Below are positions 1 to 34,024 of a DNA stretch of 34,024 nucleotides, one piece after another. The stretch comes from a virus. The notes beneath the pieces are model-generated. The model was not told the origin of the DNA and searched no databases. It saw nothing but the letters and a program-made list of their open reading frames with translations. Each line of letters begins with the position of its first letter. Position 1 is the first letter of the stretch. The position numbers were made by a program, and so were the translations under genes. The stretch covers positions 1-34,024 of IMG/VR virus record IMGVR_UViG_3300026518_000036. One strand, given 5' to 3'.

Positions 1-127
1 GGAATGGCATGATAAGAAAAGGCGATGATGTCAGAGAGCACCCAACCCAAAAGCCGCTAGGTGTTATGAAATGGTGTATCACGCACCTACCAGACGACAC
101 AAATACAATCCTAGACCCCTTCATGGG
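1..127. repeat. Terminal direct repeat, left copy (circular contig overlap)
   Basis: Positions 1-127 are identical to 33898-34024. The exact length of 127 and its place inside a coding gene fit an assembler overlap of a circular or circularly closed genome better than a biological terminal repeat. The true unit is 33,897 bp. Confidence 0.9.
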
Positions 128-296: not shown

Positions 297-331
297 ATAG
301 TTATAGATAGAGAAAACTATAGGAGATAGGA

Positions 332-823: not shown

Positions 824-829
824 GGTTTA

Positions 830-909
830 TGGGGCGGGTCTGCCCTACATTATAGCGTTGACCATGCGCGGTTTCGGAGTGTAGGTGCAAGAGGTGAAAA
901 ACCGCCCCA
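830..909 (+). ncRNA. Structured RNA motif, copy A
   Basis: TGGGGCGG (830-837) pairs perfectly with CCGCCCCA (902-909). Inside lies a second hairpin, CCTACA (845-850 region) with TGTAGG (880-885 region), then an A-rich 3' strand ending GTGAAAAA. The same closing stem, a different inner 6-bp hairpin, an A-rich 3' strand and the same trailing CCATTAA(A)CAAAG occur on the minus strand before the HNH gene (23354-23307). The changed inner stem that keeps pairing argues for selection on structure. Here no gene follows, so this copy may be a relic or a 3'-UTR element of the membrane-protein gene. Confidence 0.5.
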
Positions 910-927
910 CCATTAACAAAGAAAGCA

Positions 928-962: not shown

Positions 963-1073
963 AATAGATGCTTGCAAACACACACATGTTTTCTAACTTT
1001 GGCGCGCCTCTATCTCCACTATCTATACACAAGACGCGCCCGCCCCAGATTTTCGAATTTGGGGCTTCTTTTT
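963..1073 (+). ncRNA. Candidate phage sRNA with anti-Shine-Dalgarno loop
   Basis: A short transcription unit of about 110 nt with its own promoter (928-956) and intrinsic terminator (1042-1074). Three hairpins are visible: a small one, AAACA/TGTTT (976-980/987-991); a GC clamp, GGCGCG/CGCGCC (1001-1006/1035-1040), with a 28-nt pyrimidine-rich loop; and the terminator. The loop carries CTATCTCC (1010-1017), the exact complement of GGAGATAG, the extended ribosome-binding core before genes at 332, 26030, 30973 and 33276. Seven of those eight bases also match before 656, 1135 and 31905. A second CTATCT lies at 1019-1024. The layout is that of a base-pairing regulatory RNA. It is not antisense to one gene, and an open frame from ATG 968 has no ribosome site and reads through the terminator. 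Alternative: an attenuating leader that pairs with the SD at 1123-1129 on read-through. Confidence 0.5.
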
Positions 1074-10877: not shown

Positions 10878-13138
10878 TATATTCCTCTCCCTCTTGAATC
10901 TGCGTCTTTAACGCTTGAAACCGCAATAGATGGGACTTCCTTACGCAATTGTTCAACCTGTTTTATCGCGTTGGCAATTTTCTGCTCCACGCCTGCACTC
11001 GCACCCCTTGCGTCAATATTGTAAACAGCACCGCCACCGCCATTGATAGAGTTACGCATTTTATTAGATTGCTGCGCAGTTAAAACCGTTTCGCCCTTGT
11101 GCAAGCGCGCTGTCATGTCTCTTGGCACGTCCTTAATACCTGTGGCAAAGCTTCCCTCTGCGCCACCAAATATACCGCCAAACGCCCCACCGATCGCATT
11201 AGCAAGCGGATTGATAATAGCCTTTTTCAGAGCAACCTTGGCAATATCTTTCGCAAGGTCTTTCAAAACATCGCTTAGTTTCTTGCCCTCGTTAACAGCA
11301 GCATCAAAAGCATCCTCGAATGAATCCCCAAGATCCTCGTATGTGTCGTCAAGCTCTTCTGTCAGTTCTTTCTGAACGCCAAGCTCTTCATTCTGTCGTC
11401 TGATCTGCTCGATCTGTTCATCGATCTGCTTAGTCTGTTCAGCAGTTAGCTCGATGCCTTTAGCTTTCAATTCCGCTTCGATTTCAGCACGTTTTAAAGC
11501 TGCGTCAATGATTTCTGATTTCTGGCCATAAAGATCAAGCTGGATTCTGACTTCATCACTTTCACGTTTCAAGCCATCAAGAACCTTGTCGAATTCTGTT
11601 GTGTCTCCAGTCGTTCCACCCGTTCCGCTAGGCTTAATTTCGCCACGATCAATCTTGCCAAAATTATCCAGACTAGCTTCGAGTTCTGTAATCGCTGATT
11701 GTACGTTATTTTTAAGGTTTTCAACATCCTTTGCAGAGGAATCAATACCAAGAGCGGATCCAAGTTCACGCGATTTTCTGAAAAGGAAATTCTCACCTTC
11801 TAGCGTTTTCTGAATGCGATCTAATGTTTTCAATTCTTGAATATACGCCTGAATACGTGCCTTTGTATCTTCTGTGATTGCCTTGCGCATATCACCGCTT
11901 GCCAGAATATAGCTGTCAGCCTTTGATCTGAAAGCAGTCATAGACTCATTAAGCTTTACCTGTGAATCCTTGGCGGCATTAGTTGATTTCGCCCATAGGT
12001 AATAACTCGCAATCGCAGCAACGCCGATGGGACCACCGATTAAGGCAAGACCTCTTGAAACAAGACCAAGCGCACCTGCGAGGGTTGTCTGTGCAACGGC
12101 TGCTGTACTTGAAACTCCCGCCATTCTCGCCACTGCAACAGTAACACCTGTTGCCTGTAATGCGTTGGCCGCAAAGGCTGCTGCTGTCGCTGTTAGGGAT
12201 GTTAATAGTCTACTAGCTACCACAACGGCAAGACCACCCACAGCAAGAGATAGATTTCCCAGATTGTCAGCAAGGGCGGTAATACCAAAAGCTAGTGATG
12301 AAACGCCATTATTCGCAAGGTCGCTCTGCCCGATTAAGCGCAAGAACGCATTGTCAAGACGTTGCATAGCCTTTCCAACTGTGTTTGGAATGCCCTCAAC
12401 AGCCTCGTTAATTCGCTCGCTTCCACTTACTAAAGCTTTAGCAATAAGATCAAATGACAATTGGCCATCAGCTGCGAATTGTTTAATTGACTTACCGCCC
12501 GTGTCTAAGTTCTCTTGCAGAATTTTAATAAAGAAGGCGTTTTGATCTGCAAAGGTCTGGATCTCTTGTCCAACGGCTTTAAAGTCACTAGATGCCGCTT
12601 GTCCGAATTGCTGGAAGAATGTCGCTGCCCCTGCAGCGTTCGTGCCACTAACAAGCAGTGTTTTAGAAAGCAGGTCTGTAATCTGCGTTAGGTCATTCTC
12701 TTTTTTCTGAACATCGTTAAGGGATAGTGATAGGCGTGAATATGCGTCAATCACATCTTTCAGAGGCGCAGCGTTCTTCTGTGAGATATTAAACAGATCA
12801 TTCTGAATTTTAACAAGATCACCCACGCCATCAGTCGCAACGGCCAAGCGTCCAGAAAGTTCTTTATATGTGTCTGAATATTTAACGACCTTGCTAACAG
12901 AAAATGCACTCGCGGCAATGCCAGCAAAAGAAACAAGTTCCGCTTTTAAAAATCCGATTGTTCTATTCGTGTTAGTGATACGTGAGTTTAAACGGTCAAA
13001 AGAGCGTCCATTTTTCGTGAGATTGCTATCAAGCGATGAAGAAAAACGACCAAGAACAGTAGAGGCTTTTTTCATACCACTTTCAAAGCGTGTGGTATTC
13101 GCATAAAGATCGGCGGATAATTTAGCTACTTGAACCAT
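10877..13138 (-). CDS. Tail tape measure protein
   Basis: 753 aa, the longest late gene. Begins KLSADLYANTTRFESGMKK, typical of tape measures, then a long helical region with a TMP N-terminal domain (near 110-240), an Ala/Gly-rich hydrophobic part (about 280-385) that may become the membrane channel for DNA, and coiled coil near 520-600. By the usual rule of about 1.5 angstroms per residue the tail would be near 110 nm. It overlaps the chaperone gene by 17 nt, as in lambda-like tail operons. Confidence 0.9.
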   Translation of the reverse strand: MVQVAKLSADLYANTTRFESGMKKASTVLGRFSSSLDSNLTKNGRSFDRLNSRITNTNRTIGFLKAELVSFAGIAASAFSVSKVVKYSDTYKELSGRLAVATDGVGDLVKIQNDLFNISQKNAAPLKDVIDAYSRLSLSLNDVQKKENDLTQITDLLSKTLLVSGTNAAGAATFFQQFGQAASSDFKAVGQEIQTFADQNAFFIKILQENLDTGGKSIKQFAADGQLSFDLIAKALVSGSERINEAVEGIPNTVGKAMQRLDNAFLRLIGQSDLANNGVSSLAFGITALADNLGNLSLAVGGLAVVVASRLLTSLTATAAAFAANALQATGVTVAVARMAGVSSTAAVAQTTLAGALGLVSRGLALIGGPIGVAAIASYYLWAKSTNAAKDSQVKLNESMTAFRSKADSYILASGDMRKAITEDTKARIQAYIQELKTLDRIQKTLEGENFLFRKSRELGSALGIDSSAKDVENLKNNVQSAITELEASLDNFGKIDRGEIKPSGTGGTTGDTTEFDKVLDGLKRESDEVRIQLDLYGQKSEIIDAALKRAEIEAELKAKGIELTAEQTKQIDEQIEQIRRQNEELGVQKELTEELDDTYEDLGDSFEDAFDAAVNEGKKLSDVLKDLAKDIAKVALKKAIINPLANAIGGAFGGIFGGAEGSFATGIKDVPRDMTARLHKGETVLTAQQSNKMRNSINGGGGAVYNIDARGASAGVEQKIANAIKQVEQLRKEVPSIAVSSVKDADSRGRGI

Positions 13139-16143: not shown

Positions 16144-16721
16144 AGAACATCCCTTAAATCTGCCTTTTCAAAGCATTCCAAGCGCGTTTTTCGTGTGCAA
16201 TTCACAATCTTAGTCTGAATTAATGGAGCAGCACGATTGAAATTCTCAATCCAACGCTTAAAATTAGATCCACGCTGTAAACCGCCTTTATGATCCCCGA
16301 ACCAATGCGATTTATGATCAAATCCCATGTCATAACCAAGCAAAATTATCTCGTCAAACCCCATTAAATCGGCCATATTCAGAACCTGAAACCCACTATT
16401 GCCACCTGTGGCAATAACGCCATCTTCAACTGACCAGTCAAGCCTTGGTTTATAATCGATCACATTAACGCCATATTTCGCATGAGTTTCTGGTGATAAA
16501 CTCCACAATTCCCCCTTAAAGCTATACTTAACATCGTTAAAATGAAGATCCCACCAAGGCGTGTCGCAGGAATATAGATAATCAGCCCATGGCGCAAGCT
16601 TATAACCATCGCTAACGATAAAAACAGTCGCTTTTCCCTTGCAATAATCAACATCCTCTTGCGTTAGGCTCTCACCCGATGCAATGCAGACCGCTTTATT
16701 CAATGAGGCTTTCAAGTTCAA
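16140..16721 (-). CDS. DUF115/Maf-like sugar-related accessory protein
   Basis: 193 aa. AVCIASGESLTQEDVDY near 10-26 is a glycine/serine turn of a Rossmann-like fold, and TGGNSGFQVLNMADLMGFDEIILLGYDMG (about 105-133) followed by HWFGDHKGG is the pattern of phage proteins related to DUF115 (Maf-type glycosyltransferases, MptE-like). Starts with TTG after GGGGAG, and overlaps the upstream gene by 26 nt. Paired with the neighbouring glycosyltransferase-like gene, it forms a two-gene accessory pair between the connector genes. Confidence 0.6.
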   Translation of the reverse strand: MNLKASLNKAVCIASGESLTQEDVDYCKGKATVFIVSDGYKLAPWADYLYSCDTPWWDLHFNDVKYSFKGELWSLSPETHAKYGVNVIDYKPRLDWSVEDGVIATGGNSGFQVLNMADLMGFDEIILLGYDMGFDHKSHWFGDHKGGLQRGSNFKRWIENFNRAAPLIQTKIVNCTRKTRLECFEKADLRDVL

Positions 16722-23284: not shown

Positions 23285-23306
23285 TTGTTATTCCTTTGTT
23301 TAATGG

Positions 23307-23354
23307 TGGGGCGGTAATTTTTGAAACCACGTTAAAACAATAACGTCCGCCCCA
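23307..23354 (-). ncRNA. Structured RNA motif, copy B (HNH leader)
   Basis: Minus strand: TGGGGCGG (23354-23347) pairs with CCGCCCCA (23314-23307). Inside, ACGTTA and TAACGT (23346-23341/23334-23329) form a six-bp hairpin, then comes an A-rich strand. It is followed by CCATTAAACAAAGGAA, so the HNH ribosome site lies just after the structure. The closing stem is identical to copy A and the inner stem differs but still pairs. Candidate cis-regulatory leader. Confidence 0.55.
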
Positions 23355-23362
23355 TAAGGCAA

Positions 23363-23698: not shown

Positions 23699-23941
23699 CT
23701 ATTTTCTTTCTTTTAATTCACGATCAATCTGTTTAATTAACTGCTCGCAAGATGGCTTTAAAACACAGACAAGAACCTGGTGCATTGTATCAGCATTGAA
23801 ATGCCTGCGCAGGTTCTCGCTGTGCTGTTTGATTGAGTGGACTGTCAGATTAAGATTTTCAGCCATCTCTTTCTGTGATTTTCCTTGAAGATACAGTTTA
23901 AGCACCTCCAGCTGTCTTTCTTTTAGAATTTTAGTTTTCAT
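23699..23941 (-). CDS. Stand-alone LuxR-type (GerE) HTH regulator
   Basis: 80 aa. Nearly the whole protein is a GerE HTH: LKERQLEVLKLYLQGKSQKEMAENLNL... then the recognition helix (TVHSIKQHSENLRRHF, about 31-46). No sensor domain. The ATG at 23941 is chosen because AAAGGA lies seven nt upstream and it overlaps the upstream gene by 11 nt; a longer start at 24022 mostly duplicates that gene in another frame. The gene ends about 10 nt before the promoter of the late cluster, so it is the natural candidate for a late-gene activator or repressor. Confidence 0.8.
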   Translation of the reverse strand: MKTKILKERQLEVLKLYLQGKSQKEMAENLNLTVHSIKQHSENLRRHFNADTMHQVLVCVLKPSCEQLIKQIDRELKERK

Positions 23942-24113
23942 TTTTACATCCTTTCTCGATGATTTCCATTGTCCACAGCTTTGGATCTGCTGTTTTGTCC
24001 GTCTGTTGTTTGATTCCAACAATCATAGCATGTTGTTGTTTTAATCTTCCGTCTATCACTACCAGCATTGTAAAGACAAGAAAGAAGCCAAGCACGATTA
24101 AATCTTTTGACAT
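23931..24113 (-). CDS. Small membrane protein, 60 aa
   Basis: Starts with a short KDL N-terminus and a hydrophobic segment (LIVLGFFLVFTMLVVI, residues 5-20), then about 40 polar residues. Probably anchored in the inner membrane with a cytoplasmic or periplasmic tail. The ATG follows the preceding stop directly and the last 11 nt overlap the HTH gene. Function unknown. Confidence 0.6.
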   Translation of the reverse strand: MSKDLIVLGFFLVFTMLVVIDGRLKQQHAMIVGIKQQTDKTADPKLWTMEIIEKGCKNEN

Positions 24114-25162: not shown

Positions 25163-25498
25163 TTACTCTCCCTTTGCTTTTTCTAATGCTTTTTGTGCAT
25201 GGAAGAAACAACGCAGTCCTGTCTTTTGATTGTTTGTTGTTTCTATATCTTTTACCAATCCGTCCAAAGCATCGATAAATTGCGCCTTGGTTGGATCTTC
25301 TGCTCTGGTGTTCCAGTCTTGTTTTGCTTTCCTTGGGTTGCTTCTTGGTTTCAATTTTGCACCGCAACGATCCCTACGACACTCAACGTGGAAAAATTCT
25401 TGCCCCGAGCCATTATAGTGCGGTGAATAATATTTTCTAAATATTGGCTTACCTTTACCACAAAATGGGCATGGCTTTAGTTCTGTTTCTTGTGTCAT
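25163..25498 (-). CDS. Lar-like zinc-ribbon protein (putative restriction alleviation)
   Basis: 111 aa. LKPCPFCGKG (C10, C13), then C40 and C45, form a four-Cys zinc ribbon, followed by a KQDWNTRAE motif (60-68). This start and WN ending are the Lar/ restriction-alleviation family. In lambdoid phages Lar modulates host type I restriction. The pairing with a solitary methyltransferase suggests two lines of anti-restriction, though many proteins of this family are untested. Confidence 0.7.
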   Translation of the reverse strand: MTQETELKPCPFCGKGKPIFRKYYSPHYNGSGQEFFHVECRRDRCGAKLKPRSNPRKAKQDWNTRAEDPTKAQFIDALDGLVKDIETTNNQKTGLRCFFHAQKALEKAKGE

Positions 25499-25499
25499 C

Positions 25500-26030
25500 T
25501 CAAATCACCCCATACAAACAATATTTTTTGATTGCGTCTTTGCCGTGTTTTTCGGTTACGGTTTTGATGGCTCTTTTGGCATCTTTTATGCCATTGAAAT
25601 AAACCGCGCTAGGGCTTTGCCTGTGTTGAGACGTAAACACTTTAACCGTGCATTCAAAATGACACCAAACTAAAAATGACTTATCCTGATCTTCATTATC
25701 CCAATCAGGCACAAACCCACCAGCCAATTCTTTTAGCATTGTGTGGACTTTGCGGTTTTGGGCTATTTGTTCTGCTTGTTCTTGGGTTTTGTAGATACCG
25801 AGTTCTTTTGCGTTTTTATCCCAACTCTGATCTTGCCACCTGTCATAATTAACAGTACCATCAGCACCAATGTGATAATAAATTTCACCATTCTCAGGCC
25901 ATGGCTTTTCTTCTTCTGGCTGATTATTAACAACCGCATTAATGAGCTGTTCAAATGTCACTCCAGCGTCATCTAACGAATTTGCAAATTGTGTGAACGC
26001 CTCAACTGCATATTTTGCTTTATTTGTCAC
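25500..26030 (-). CDS. Hypothetical early phage protein, 176 aa
   Basis: GTG start with GGAGATAG in the leader (26033-26040). Middle region with PWPENGEIYYHIGADGTV near 43-60 and IYKTQEQAEQIAQNRKV near 79-95 is a pattern I recall from accessory phage proteins; the ending KYCLYGVI is hydrophobic. First gene of the minus-strand early operon, driven by promoter P6. Function unknown. Confidence 0.7.
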   Translation of the reverse strand: MTNKAKYAVEAFTQFANSLDDAGVTFEQLINAVVNNQPEEEKPWPENGEIYYHIGADGTVNYDRWQDQSWDKNAKELGIYKTQEQAEQIAQNRKVHTMLKELAGGFVPDWDNEDQDKSFLVWCHFECTVKVFTSQHRQSPSAVYFNGIKDAKRAIKTVTEKHGKDAIKKYCLYGVI

Positions 26031-26062
26031 CCCTATCTCCTTTTATTAATTTACCTAACCTA

Positions 26063-26091
26063 ACTCTATAGACATTCGTTTAATGCGTCAA
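26063..26091 (-). promoter_or_regulatory. Early promoter P6 (shared family)
   Basis: TTGACG (26091-26086), 17-bp spacer with CATTAAAC, TAGAGT (26068-26063). Same box as the other family members. The leader to the GTG at 26030 carries GGAGATAG. It reads away from the origin-like region. Confidence 0.6.
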
Positions 26092-26305: not shown

Positions 26306-26369
26306 AATAATTTCCTTTTCTTCTAAGTTATGGCGAAGCACCATGCCCGCCGTTAATGTGTATAATATA

Positions 26370-26398
26370 ACTGTATATACTTTTGTTTAATGTGTCAA
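26370..26398 (-). promoter_or_regulatory. Early promoter P5 (shared family)
   Basis: TTGACA (26398-26393), 17-bp spacer with CATTAAAC, TACAGT (26375-26370). Alternatively TATACA at a 15-bp spacer. Drives the 26150-26305 gene. Confidence 0.6.
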
Positions 26399-26550
26399 CA
26401 ATAAAACAGCAAAAAGCGCAAAAAAATCAAGACTACATTCAGGTTACAAACAAATGTACCCTGATTTACCTTTATATTACAGGCACTTAACCAAAAAAAA
26501 GGGCAAAAAACTACAAATAGGTGCGCATCTTTCCTATAGGGCATAAAAAA

Positions 26551-26595
26551 TCTGGACATTTGGACAAACTTTCTGAAAATGTCCAGATGTCCAGA
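26551..26595. repeat. 16-bp inverted repeat with internal TGGACA direct repeats
   Basis: TCTGGACATTTGGACA (26551-26566) and TGTCCAGATGTCCAGA (26580-26595) pair at 15 of 16 positions across a 13-nt loop. Each arm holds two copies of TGGACA, or its complement, eight bp apart. No T-tract follows, so not a terminator. Confidence 0.85.
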
Positions 26596-26686
26596 AATAT
26601 ATAAAATATAAAAAAGTTTGTAATATAAATGTAGTAAATAGGGGTAAATATAGGTTAAGCCATTGATTTTAAAGGATAATTCAGGG

Positions 26687-26725
26687 TACATTTTGACTAC
26701 ATTTTGACTACATTTTACTACATTT
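26687..26725 (+). repeat. Iteron-like direct repeats TACATTTTGAC
   Basis: TACATTTTGAC (26687-26697), TACATTTTGAC (26698-26708), TACATTTTAC (26709-26718), TACATTT (26719-26725). Three tandem near-identical units and a partial fourth; the 11-bp period puts them on one helix face. Confidence 0.85.
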
Positions 26726-26822
26726 GGTATTATAATACCCTACTTTATTTAACATATTCGTGTCCAAGCTCTTTTGTCATAATAATCATGGACGCTAAAA
26801 GTTAATTTTTCAAAAAGCTGTA

Positions 26823-26851
26823 TTGACATGGCATAAAGTTTATGTTTTGAT
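26823..26851 (+). promoter_or_regulatory. Early promoter P3 (shared family, variant)
   Basis: TTGACA (26823-26828), 17-bp spacer starting TGGCATAAAG, TTTGAT (26846-26851). It differs from P1/P2 by a short insertion in the box and by AAAG instead of AAAC, and the -10 is weak. Leader to ATG 26883 is about 25 nt. Confidence 0.5.
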
Positions 26852-26882
26852 TGTTTTCGTAAAGATAGGGAGTTACAAACAC

Positions 26883-29141
26883 ATGAATTTTATCCAAGAA
26901 TTTATTGAACATATGCAGTCTAGCGGTTGGGGGCCACTAAAGGAATCCGAGATCATTCCCGATGACGTTAAAAGACGCTATGCCGTGATAGGCGATAAAG
27001 GCGGTAAGAAATCCGCAGTCTATCAGCTGCGACTAGATGGTGATTTTGCTTGCGGATGGTATCACTCATTTAAAGAAGGTGTCACACATAAATGGCACAG
27101 TAAAAGCAAGCGTAAAATTTCAGATGAAGAGCGCAAAGAAATCCATAGAAAAATCGATGCCCAGAGAAAAAAGCAAGAGCGCGAAATTAAAAAAGGATAT
27201 GAAAAAGCGGCAAGGATTGCTGTAAAAAGATGGGCGACATGCACGAATAAAGGAACGACAGAATACCTGGAACGCAAGAAAATAGAATTACTATGCGCGC
27301 GTATTTATAAAGACAGCGTTTATGTGCCGATGTATTTTGATAATAAGATTGTTAATTTACAGAAAATCTACCCAGATGGGCGCAAGCGGTTTATTAAGTA
27401 CGGGATTAAGCAGGGCTGTTATGGGTTTATTGCATCGGCTGATGATGATAAATCGGTAATATATATATGTGAGGGATATGCCACCGCCCAAAGTGTGAGA
27501 TATGCATGCGTGAATAATCCCGTGATTATTGCATTTGATGCTGGGAATTTACAGCCTGTTGCGGAAAAGATCCGTTTGAAATATCCAGATGCTAAGATTG
27601 TGATTTGCGCTGACAATGACCAGTGGACGAAAAAGCCAGATGGCACTGCATGGAATCCAGGTCTTGAGAAAGCGCGCAAGGCAGCGGCGGTTATTAGAGC
27701 GTTTTGCATCTGGCCAGAGGTTTCAGCAGACGATCCCCACAGAACGACAGATTTTAATGATGTTCATTGTAATTATGGTATTGAGCAGGTGAGAGATCGC
27801 CTTGATAGTGTCGGGGATGTTCAGAATATCACAGAAAGCGATGCCTCGCAGGTGATACCATTAAGTGCCTATGATGAAGATGAAGGCCACATTCCAACGA
27901 AAAGGGATTTAGGGGAGACTGTCGAGCAGAACTGGCAGAGCATGGTGATTGAAGATAAATATGGCAATCTGAAATCTAGTTCTATGCACAATATGAAGAT
28001 ACTGTTGGAATATCACCCAGAATTTAAAGGTATGTTTGCGTATGATGAATTTGCCCATCAGATGATGCTAGTGCGATGCCCACCATGGGAAAAGGAGTCG
28101 GAATTTCGGGTGCAACGTGTGAATGATACGGTAATAACAGAGATGTCTATGGCGTTTGAGTGTCATGGCCTGTCATCAAGTGTGGATAAAACATTTAAGG
28201 CGGTTCAGGTGGCTTGTAAGAAAAATGCGATCCACCCAGCAAGGGAATATATCAGCAAGCTTGAATGGGATGGTGTGCCACGCCTTGATAGATGGTTGAA
28301 GACCTATGCGGGTTGTGTTGATGCACCGGATGAATATTTGGATTTTGTCGGAACTAAGTGGTTGGTCGCTGCGGTGAAGCGTGTGTTTGAACCTGGTTGT
28401 AAGTTTGATCACATTCTTGTGTTTGAAGGAAATCAGGGGATCGGTAAGTCAACGTTGCTGAAAGAATTGGCGACATTTGAAGATGAAAGCTATTTCAATG
28501 ACGATCTAAGCATTACAGACATCGGCGACAAGGATATGATTATGAAGATCCAAGGCGCTATGATTTTGGAGATTCCTGAAATGCAGGGGTTTAATAAGAA
28601 AGATGATACTGAGATTAAGAAATGGATCACGGTTCAGGTTGATGAATGCCGCCTACCCTATGGTCGCACGATTGAATATTTCCCACGGCAGTTTGTGATT
28701 GGCGCTTCAACGAATGAATATGACTATCTGCGTGATATGACGGGTAACCGCCGATATTGGCCTGTGTTGGCGACTAAGATTGATATTGATAAGCTTAGAG
28801 AAGATAGATTACAGCTATGGGCGGAGGCGCTGACACACTATAGAGATGGGATGTATATTGGCCCAACGCATGAAGAGGCTGAAATGGCCAAGGCTGAACA
28901 GGCGAAAAGACTGAAAGAGGACATCTGGGAAGAAGCGATCATGCATGCGGTTGATGAACTGAATGATAAGAGAATGCCTGTTAAGGTGAATAGTATTTTA
29001 CAGGCGCTTGGCGTGGATTTGAAAGATCGAAATGTGCTGAATAAAAAACGTGTTGAGAATGTTCTGAAAAAAGGAGGGTATGAGCAGAAAGTTCGGAAGT
29101 TCGGTGAGGAGAATAAATCTCATAGATGTTGGATTAAATAA
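26883..29141 (+). CDS. Primase-helicase, TOPRIM-like plus VirE-type SF3-like helicase
   Basis: 752 aa, main replication initiator candidate. Residues about 190-250 form a TOPRIM-like domain: ICEGYATAQSV (195-205) and CADND (242-246). Residues 340-720 resemble VirE-family ATPases: Walker A EGNQGIGKST (515-524), Walker B AMILEIPEM (559-567), and FVIGASTNEYDYLRDMTGNRRYWP with sensor and arginine-finger residues. Primase plus helicase would open the nearby origin-like region. ATG 26883 is used because the longer frame begins with the TTG of the promoter's -35 box; AGGGAG lies about 10 nt upstream, a rather long spacing. Confidence 0.88.
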   Translation: MNFIQEFIEHMQSSGWGPLKESEIIPDDVKRRYAVIGDKGGKKSAVYQLRLDGDFACGWYHSFKEGVTHKWHSKSKRKISDEERKEIHRKIDAQRKKQEREIKKGYEKAARIAVKRWATCTNKGTTEYLERKKIELLCARIYKDSVYVPMYFDNKIVNLQKIYPDGRKRFIKYGIKQGCYGFIASADDDKSVIYICEGYATAQSVRYACVNNPVIIAFDAGNLQPVAEKIRLKYPDAKIVICADNDQWTKKPDGTAWNPGLEKARKAAAVIRAFCIWPEVSADDPHRTTDFNDVHCNYGIEQVRDRLDSVGDVQNITESDASQVIPLSAYDEDEGHIPTKRDLGETVEQNWQSMVIEDKYGNLKSSSMHNMKILLEYHPEFKGMFAYDEFAHQMMLVRCPPWEKESEFRVQRVNDTVITEMSMAFECHGLSSSVDKTFKAVQVACKKNAIHPAREYISKLEWDGVPRLDRWLKTYAGCVDAPDEYLDFVGTKWLVAAVKRVFEPGCKFDHILVFEGNQGIGKSTLLKELATFEDESYFNDDLSITDIGDKDMIMKIQGAMILEIPEMQGFNKKDDTEIKKWITVQVDECRLPYGRTIEYFPRQFVIGASTNEYDYLRDMTGNRRYWPVLATKIDIDKLREDRLQLWAEALTHYRDGMYIGPTHEEAEMAKAEQAKRLKEDIWEEAIMHAVDELNDKRMPVKVNSILQALGVDLKDRNVLNKKRVENVLKKGGYEQKVRKFGEENKSHRCWIK

Positions 29142-33482: not shown

Positions 33483-34024
33483 ATGACATACAAAAGAAAA
33501 GAGATCATCGGCGATTGCACGCTTTATTTAGGGGACTGCCAAGAGGTGATGAAGGATATTGATAAAGTTGATGCTGTGGTTACAGACCCGCCTTATGGGA
33601 TTGATGTTATTGAAAAAACATATCAAAACAAAAAGAAAAGACCGGGTAAAAGTAAAGCTGATAAAACAAACTGGTCAAGAACACAAACATGGGATAAAAA
33701 GCCACCAGAACAAGAAGTTATAAATAAAATATTAGACATCTCAAATCATCAAATCATATTTGGCGGCAATTATTTTCACCTACCTCCAACAAAATGTTGG
33801 CTTATTTGGGATAAGCAAAACGGAAGTAATGACTTTGCTGATTGCGAAATGGCATGGACAAACCTGAATAAGGCCGTAAGAAAAATTGAATGGCTGCGGA
33901 ATGGCATGATAAGAAAAGGCGATGATGTCAGAGAGCACCCAACCCAAAAGCCGCTAGGTGTTATGAAATGGTGTATCACGCACCTACCAGACGACACAAA
34001 TACAATCCTAGACCCCTTCATGGG
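33483..34024 (+). CDS. DNA methyltransferase, 5' part (continues at 1-260)
   Basis: Starts 9 nt after the small gene with GGGGATA as ribosome site. The catalytic motif TDPPYGI lies at about residues 38-44, after a short N-terminal block (IGDCTLYLGDCQEVMKDI), and the likely target-recognition part (residues 50-130) follows. The gene runs off the window edge but is complete on the circle: 224 aa ending at 260 in the left piece. Beta-class N6-A/N4-C enzyme; DPPY fits either. Confidence 0.9.
   Translation, partial: MTYKRKEIIGDCTLYLGDCQEVMKDIDKVDAVVTDPPYGIDVIEKTYQNKKKRPGKSKADKTNWSRTQTWDKKPPEQEVINKILDISNHQIIFGGNYFHLPPTKCWLIWDKQNGSNDFADCEMAWTNLNKAVRKIEWLRNGMIRKGDDVREHPTQKPLGVMKWCITHLPDDTNTILDPFM
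33898..34024. repeat. Terminal direct repeat, right copy
   Basis: Identical to 1-127; see the left copy. It shows that the true molecule is circular or circularly permuted and that the unit ends at 33897. Confidence 0.9.

Follow-up and report, generated by a model that had tools for sequence, protein, structure and literature searches.

Close to the left end of the window (the whole of a virus record, 34,024 bases in length, a single genome that underlies all the comparisons of loop and leader given below), two genes read rightward from a promoter at positions 268 to 296 (+; TTGACA-N17-TAAGAT). The first gene of this operon (332-646, +) encodes a protein of 104 amino acids of unknown function, and the second (656-823, +) a protein of 55 amino acids with a hydrophobic C-terminal half. 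The latter is possibly a small single-span membrane protein, translationally coupled to gene 332, the end of which is overlapped by the Shine-Dalgarno (SD) sequence GGAGATA of gene 656. Downstream of both genes lie, in this order, a hairpin of the form GGGGCGG...CCGCCCC (830-909, +), to which a hairpin at 23300-23356 (-) is related; a weak candidate internal promoter (TTGACC-N17-TATATA; 928-956, +); a GC-clamped hairpin with a 28-nt loop (1001-1040, +); and an intrinsic terminator (1042-1074, +), which would close the 332-656 mRNA and any small RNA (sRNA) made from this region. Since no other intrinsic-terminator-like site comes between the promoter at 268 and this terminator, the loop sequence at 1010-1027, past genes 332 and 656 and ahead of the terminator, is placed in the 3' untranslated region (3'UTR) of the operon mRNA, with or without a separate sRNA, the transcript ends being those predicted from the sequence.

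The first and last 127 bp of the window (1-127 and 33898-34024) are identical, and the two ends of the record each hold a part of one DNA methylase gene, so that the record most likely represents a complete genome of 33,897 bp, circularly closed or circularly permuted. The minus strand carries an HK97-like structural module (terminase, head and tail proteins), while a rightward module for replication and recombination encodes a primase-helicase, RecE-like and RecT-like proteins and an SSB. Identity of the terminase to anything found does not exceed 65%, and that of RecT is below 60%. The subset of proteins that was searched included no recognisable integrase or repressor, and a search for tRNA and tmRNA genes gave none.

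In the clamped hairpin, the arms GGCGCG (1001-1006) and CGCGCC (1035-1040) face each other, and folding of the segment 995-1041 gave -10.2 kcal/mol (z = -3.1), a stability equalled by 0 of 200 shuffles. Its loop contains two blocks. Block 1, the octamer CTATCTCC (1010-1017, +), was identified as an anti-SD sequence by complement and duplex analyses, and block 2, CTATCTATA (1019-1027, +), as complementary to the 332 mRNA at its 5' end, by 9-mer counts and pairing. According to the predicted folding of the isolated RNA, bases 1012 to 1017 are at least 96% unpaired and bases 1010 and 1011 about 45%. The terminator scan recovered a strong site, made up of a 10-bp stem (1042-1065) followed by TTCTTTTTT. 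These data agree with a preliminary description of this DNA, which had proposed a GC clamp presenting the octamer at 1010-1017, a terminator at 1042-1074 and, between the promoter at 928 and that terminator, no credible gene, the 38-codon frame found there having been read by eye. This frame, which begins at the ATG at 968, is devoid of an SD sequence and extends through the terminator, and was rejected; so was a minus-strand gene that would use GGAGATAG at 1017-1010 as its SD, as no start codon lies at a workable distance.

The window contains five copies of the octamer GGAGATAG, compared with 0.5 expected, and none of 100 shuffles reached this number. Four of these copies are the SD sequences of the early genes 332, 26030 (-), 30973 and 33276, while the remaining one lies opposite the loop sequence, on the other strand at 1010-1017. 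GGAGATA is also found upstream of 656, 1135 and 31905. As the two leftover GGAGATA matches (7369 and 24796) sit within coding sequence, no copy serves as the SD of a structural gene, and the window-wide count upholds what had been stated beforehand, namely that the octamer precedes no structural gene; the motif serves as ribosome site for just the early genes listed above. Taken alone, the octamer is only modest evidence, because a sense copy of CTATCTCC arises in a noncoding gap in 1.6% of shuffles; the complementarity is moreover partly generic, since GGAGATA is a common, ordinary form of the SD. Noncoding complements of recurring SD octamers do occur in related contigs (7 matches in other contigs, a figure that gives a rough background rate only, as it comes from ab initio open reading frame calling that masked the loop site itself). 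Such frequencies would fit a locus that had no regulatory function and were an ordinary operon end (hairpin, spacer and terminator) in which an anti-SD octamer had appeared by accident, and the fact that the loop was picked after many features had been scanned points the same way.

The same holds for conservation, as no relative carrying the locus was found in the collections searched. Nucleotide searches of phages, for close as well as distant similarity, yielded no match, or weak AT-rich ones mostly around the promoter at 1076; when 1362, 2664, the primase and RecT served as protein seeds against viral contigs, no relatives emerged; the terminase search returned relatives at 39-65% only, with the locus in none of the 25 records tested; and neither the RecT search in genomes nor a pattern search for the loop, run on viral contigs as well as on genomes, returned anything. 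The window had no match in Rfam at gathering thresholds, and the c4 RNA model none at 780-1140 up to E = 5.

The second block speaks against an accident. While block 1 is the exact complement of GGAGATAG, the SD of gene 332 (322-329, +), block 2 is the exact complement of TATAGATAG, which lies where the same mRNA is predicted to begin (302-310, +). Each strand of the genome has a single copy of this 9-mer, at 302-310 (+) and 1019-1027 (-). Loop and leader match in two collinear blocks of 8 and 9 nt (1010-1017 with 322-329, and 1019-1027 with 302-310). Neither 30,000 dinucleotide shuffles of the 3'UTR nor 2,640 natural stretches contained such an arrangement, with block parameters that were set after the match was seen. 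When the noncoding gaps were compared all against all under looser settings, a few other, unrelated long-range two-block pairs appeared. Because of these pairs and of the post hoc parameters, we take the real chance of a two-block match to be about 1% or less, not 1 in 30,000. Leader-specific duplex energies alone gave p values of about 0.007-0.015, and block 2 is AU-rich. Predicted binding by the UTR (824-1041) exceeded 98.5% of shuffles for the 332 leader and 99.3% for the 26030 leader. In the minimum free energy fold of the predicted mRNA (303-1074), 322-329 pairs with 1010-1017 and 303-310 with 1019-1026, leader and loop share 15.5 expected pairs (60 shuffled loops gave at most 11.7) and the SD bases are about 1-4% unpaired, figures to be read as those of a 772-nt fold that ignores ribosomes and is unreliable. 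The best partner of the loop is the leader of its own mRNA (332), and the second block had escaped the preliminary description; the 1135 leader, which had been put forward there as the target in cis, ranks among the weaker partners (-11.4 kcal/mol, 7 nt).

In predicted pairing, the loop also prefers early over late ribosome sites. Its early-minus-late duplex preference amounts to -4.07 kcal/mol, against a background of +0.62 +/- 1.12, which places it second of 1,901; when random loops of the same composition were used as a check, as had been suggested, the preference of the 28-nt loop was equalled by 0 of 1,000 shuffled loops, and among natural segments by 1 of 1,900. In these comparisons and in the mRNA fold, the methylase start was set at 33484, one base off the correct 33483, which leaves the outcome unchanged. 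With this preference, the second block that fits the same leader and an octamer lying in the loop of a hairpin stabler than chance, we regard a locus devoid of regulatory function as rather unlikely, though deserving of a hearing.

The strongest single partner in trans is the leader (26031-26043, -) of the leftward early gene 25500-26030, for which 11 continuous pairs, including one G-U, and a duplex of -21.9 kcal/mol are predicted. The cofold gain was -20.6 for this leader and -12.0 for the 30973 leader, compared with about -5 for two late leaders. These gains, as well as the preference for early sites, would suit a stand-alone sRNA of about 110 nt (963-1074), transcribed from the promoter at 928 and repressing 26030, 332, 30973 and 33276 in trans through its loop; a hairpin followed by a terminator is moreover an architecture typical of sRNAs, and an intrinsic terminator and an exposed seed are both predicted at 1001-1074. 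However, whereas the promoters at 268 and 1076 took ranks 4 and 7 of 577 in the weight-matrix scan, that at 928 came at rank 83. The sequence TTGACC-N17-TATATA is present there, as had been described, but it is weak, was missed by the consensus scan and is devoid of the TAAAC element common to the better early promoters of this phage (TTGAC..TAAAC..TATA in the promoters 268-296, 1076-1104 and 26067-26091 (-); 3 exact matches, 0 expected). Nor did the collections searched contain relatives that would show conservation, or Rfam anything above threshold. Given this poor promoter evidence, the free-standing sRNA initially proposed is not supported and we consider it unlikely; from the switch on early translation that it was to exert in trans, the predicted pairing preference for early over late SD sequences is retained. 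That the TATAGATA-like sites at 302 (the predicted start of the transcript from 268), at 955 and, reversed, at 1020 are operators of a phage regulator, the RNA complementarity being a by-product, is highly improbable, since TATAGATA also occurs within genes at 16573 and 5155, the copy at 1020 is not at a promoter, and both the complement of GGAGATAG and the GC clamp are left unexplained.

With a little less than even confidence, we favour a reading in which the anti-SD loop of the 3'UTR folds back onto the leader of its own mRNA and may, in trans, also target the SD sequences of other early genes, because the predicted fold of the 303-1074 mRNA joins leader and loop. An early mRNA would start near 303, carry 332 and 656, and stop at the terminator at 1042-1074. 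Its 6-bp GC clamp would hold open a loop with the adjacent blocks CUAUCUCC and CUAUCUAUA, which would pair with the Shine-Dalgarno sequence GGAGAUAG and with the first leader nucleotides of the same mRNA. Once the whole message has been made and fewer ribosomes travel along it, the tail would close on the head, thereby masking the ribosome site of 332, and that of 656 if the two genes are coupled, and the duplex of leader and loop would probably be exposed to RNase III. As the tail is transcribed last, such repression in cis would come late. The SD octamer being shared with other early genes, the loop could also pair in trans, either on the mRNA tail or on a processed or separately transcribed RNA of about 110 nt, most strongly with the 26030 leader, and in this way help to shut off early translation.

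A bolder form of the self-closing loop, which we consider improbable, would make this one loop a genome-wide off switch for early genes, with the SD octamer as an address tag present on both strands and absent from late genes, the loop's own message being closed first through the two blocks and the others afterwards in trans. If true, RNA alone would suffice for the phage to keep early and late translation apart, the shared SD variant being the tag and the 3'UTR loop the switch, and the pairing between 5' and 3' UTRs, demonstrated for icaR in Staphylococcus aureus, would extend to phages. It would also supply a simple search rule, namely to look for SD octamers that recur among early genes and are complementary to a clamped loop located ahead of a terminator.

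By base-pairing with the SD, the motif UCCCCUG in the 3'UTR of the S. aureus icaR mRNA keeps ribosomes from loading and brings in RNase III, for which the pairing gives a substrate, and the motif may act in trans as well (PMC3868564). Similarly, an anti-SD motif is located here in the 3'UTR of the same transcript, as delimited by its predicted ends, and its predicted partner, also in the fold of the full mRNA, is that mRNA's own SD. In contrast to icaR, a bacterial chromosomal gene with a 7-nt motif, we are dealing with a phage early operon, with blocks of 8 and 9 nt in a clamped loop, with an SD common to several early genes and with a pairing that is predicted only. Among phages, the c4 RNA of P1 and P7 blocks translation by pairing at a ribosome site, and its complementary sequences are thought to be in loops (PMC12197685), so that the earlier statement that no phage RNA of this kind had been described was too strong. 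Both are phage RNAs with a loop complementary to a ribosome site (in our case by prediction), but c4 RNA acts on one antirepressor gene in the control of immunity, whereas several early genes share the SD here, no immunity region was recognised in the window and there is no Rfam match. The alpha-r14 or NfeR1 ('cuckoo') sRNAs of rhizobia occlude ribosome sites by anti-SD motifs in unpaired regions of hairpins (PMC10746234); NfeR1 has three hairpins with CCUCCUCCC, as opposed to one hairpin with another motif in a phage genome. With the Betaproteobacteria toxic small RNA (RF02278) the locus has in common a UCUCC stretch shortly before the terminator stem, a likeness of layout and not of membership, as it scored 13.7 bits (E = 3.4), far below the gathering score of 50. 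In the hok mRNA, the 3' end folds back to pair with the 5' end and the message stays untranslated. Our predicted tail-to-head pairing, in an operon that encodes a small hydrophobic protein (656), resembles this arrangement, although no antitoxin RNA or Hok-like protein was identified here. The proposed mechanism would be of a known kind, and its unusual part would be the SD octamer shared by early genes.

Some further features of the genome were recorded. A hairpin made of TTATGGGGCGG, a variable interior and ACCGCCCCACCATTAA follows a gene's stop codon both at 828-916 (+) and at 23300-23360 (-), the latter copy lying immediately ahead of the HNH gene that is next to the terminase. In L086, a phage contig without detectable similarity to the window, GGGGCGG...CCGCCCCACCATTAA lies between a stop codon, which it closely follows, and a terminase-like gene (11623-11690, -), a match that could be due to chance, as we estimate that about 0.2 would be expected; the GGGGCGG hairpin has no Rfam entry. 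The early promoters share the motif TTGAC(A/G)..(A/T)TAAAC.A..GT(A/C)TATA (268-292, 1076-1100, 26067-26091 (-) and, by eye, 26374-26398 (-)), which exceeds what the sigma-70 consensus explains, had no exact match in IMG/VR viral contigs and possibly represents an operator or a phage-specific promoter class. On the minus strand, 25163-25498 encodes a Lar-like restriction alleviation protein, and 23699-24022 a short protein with a helix-turn-helix resembling LuxR/sigma region 4, a possible regulator of late transcription. The largest noncoding gap (26345-26883; 539 nt) is situated at the GC-skew minimum and holds repeated ACTACATTT units and inverted TGTCCAGA elements, which makes it a candidate replication origin or regulatory region.
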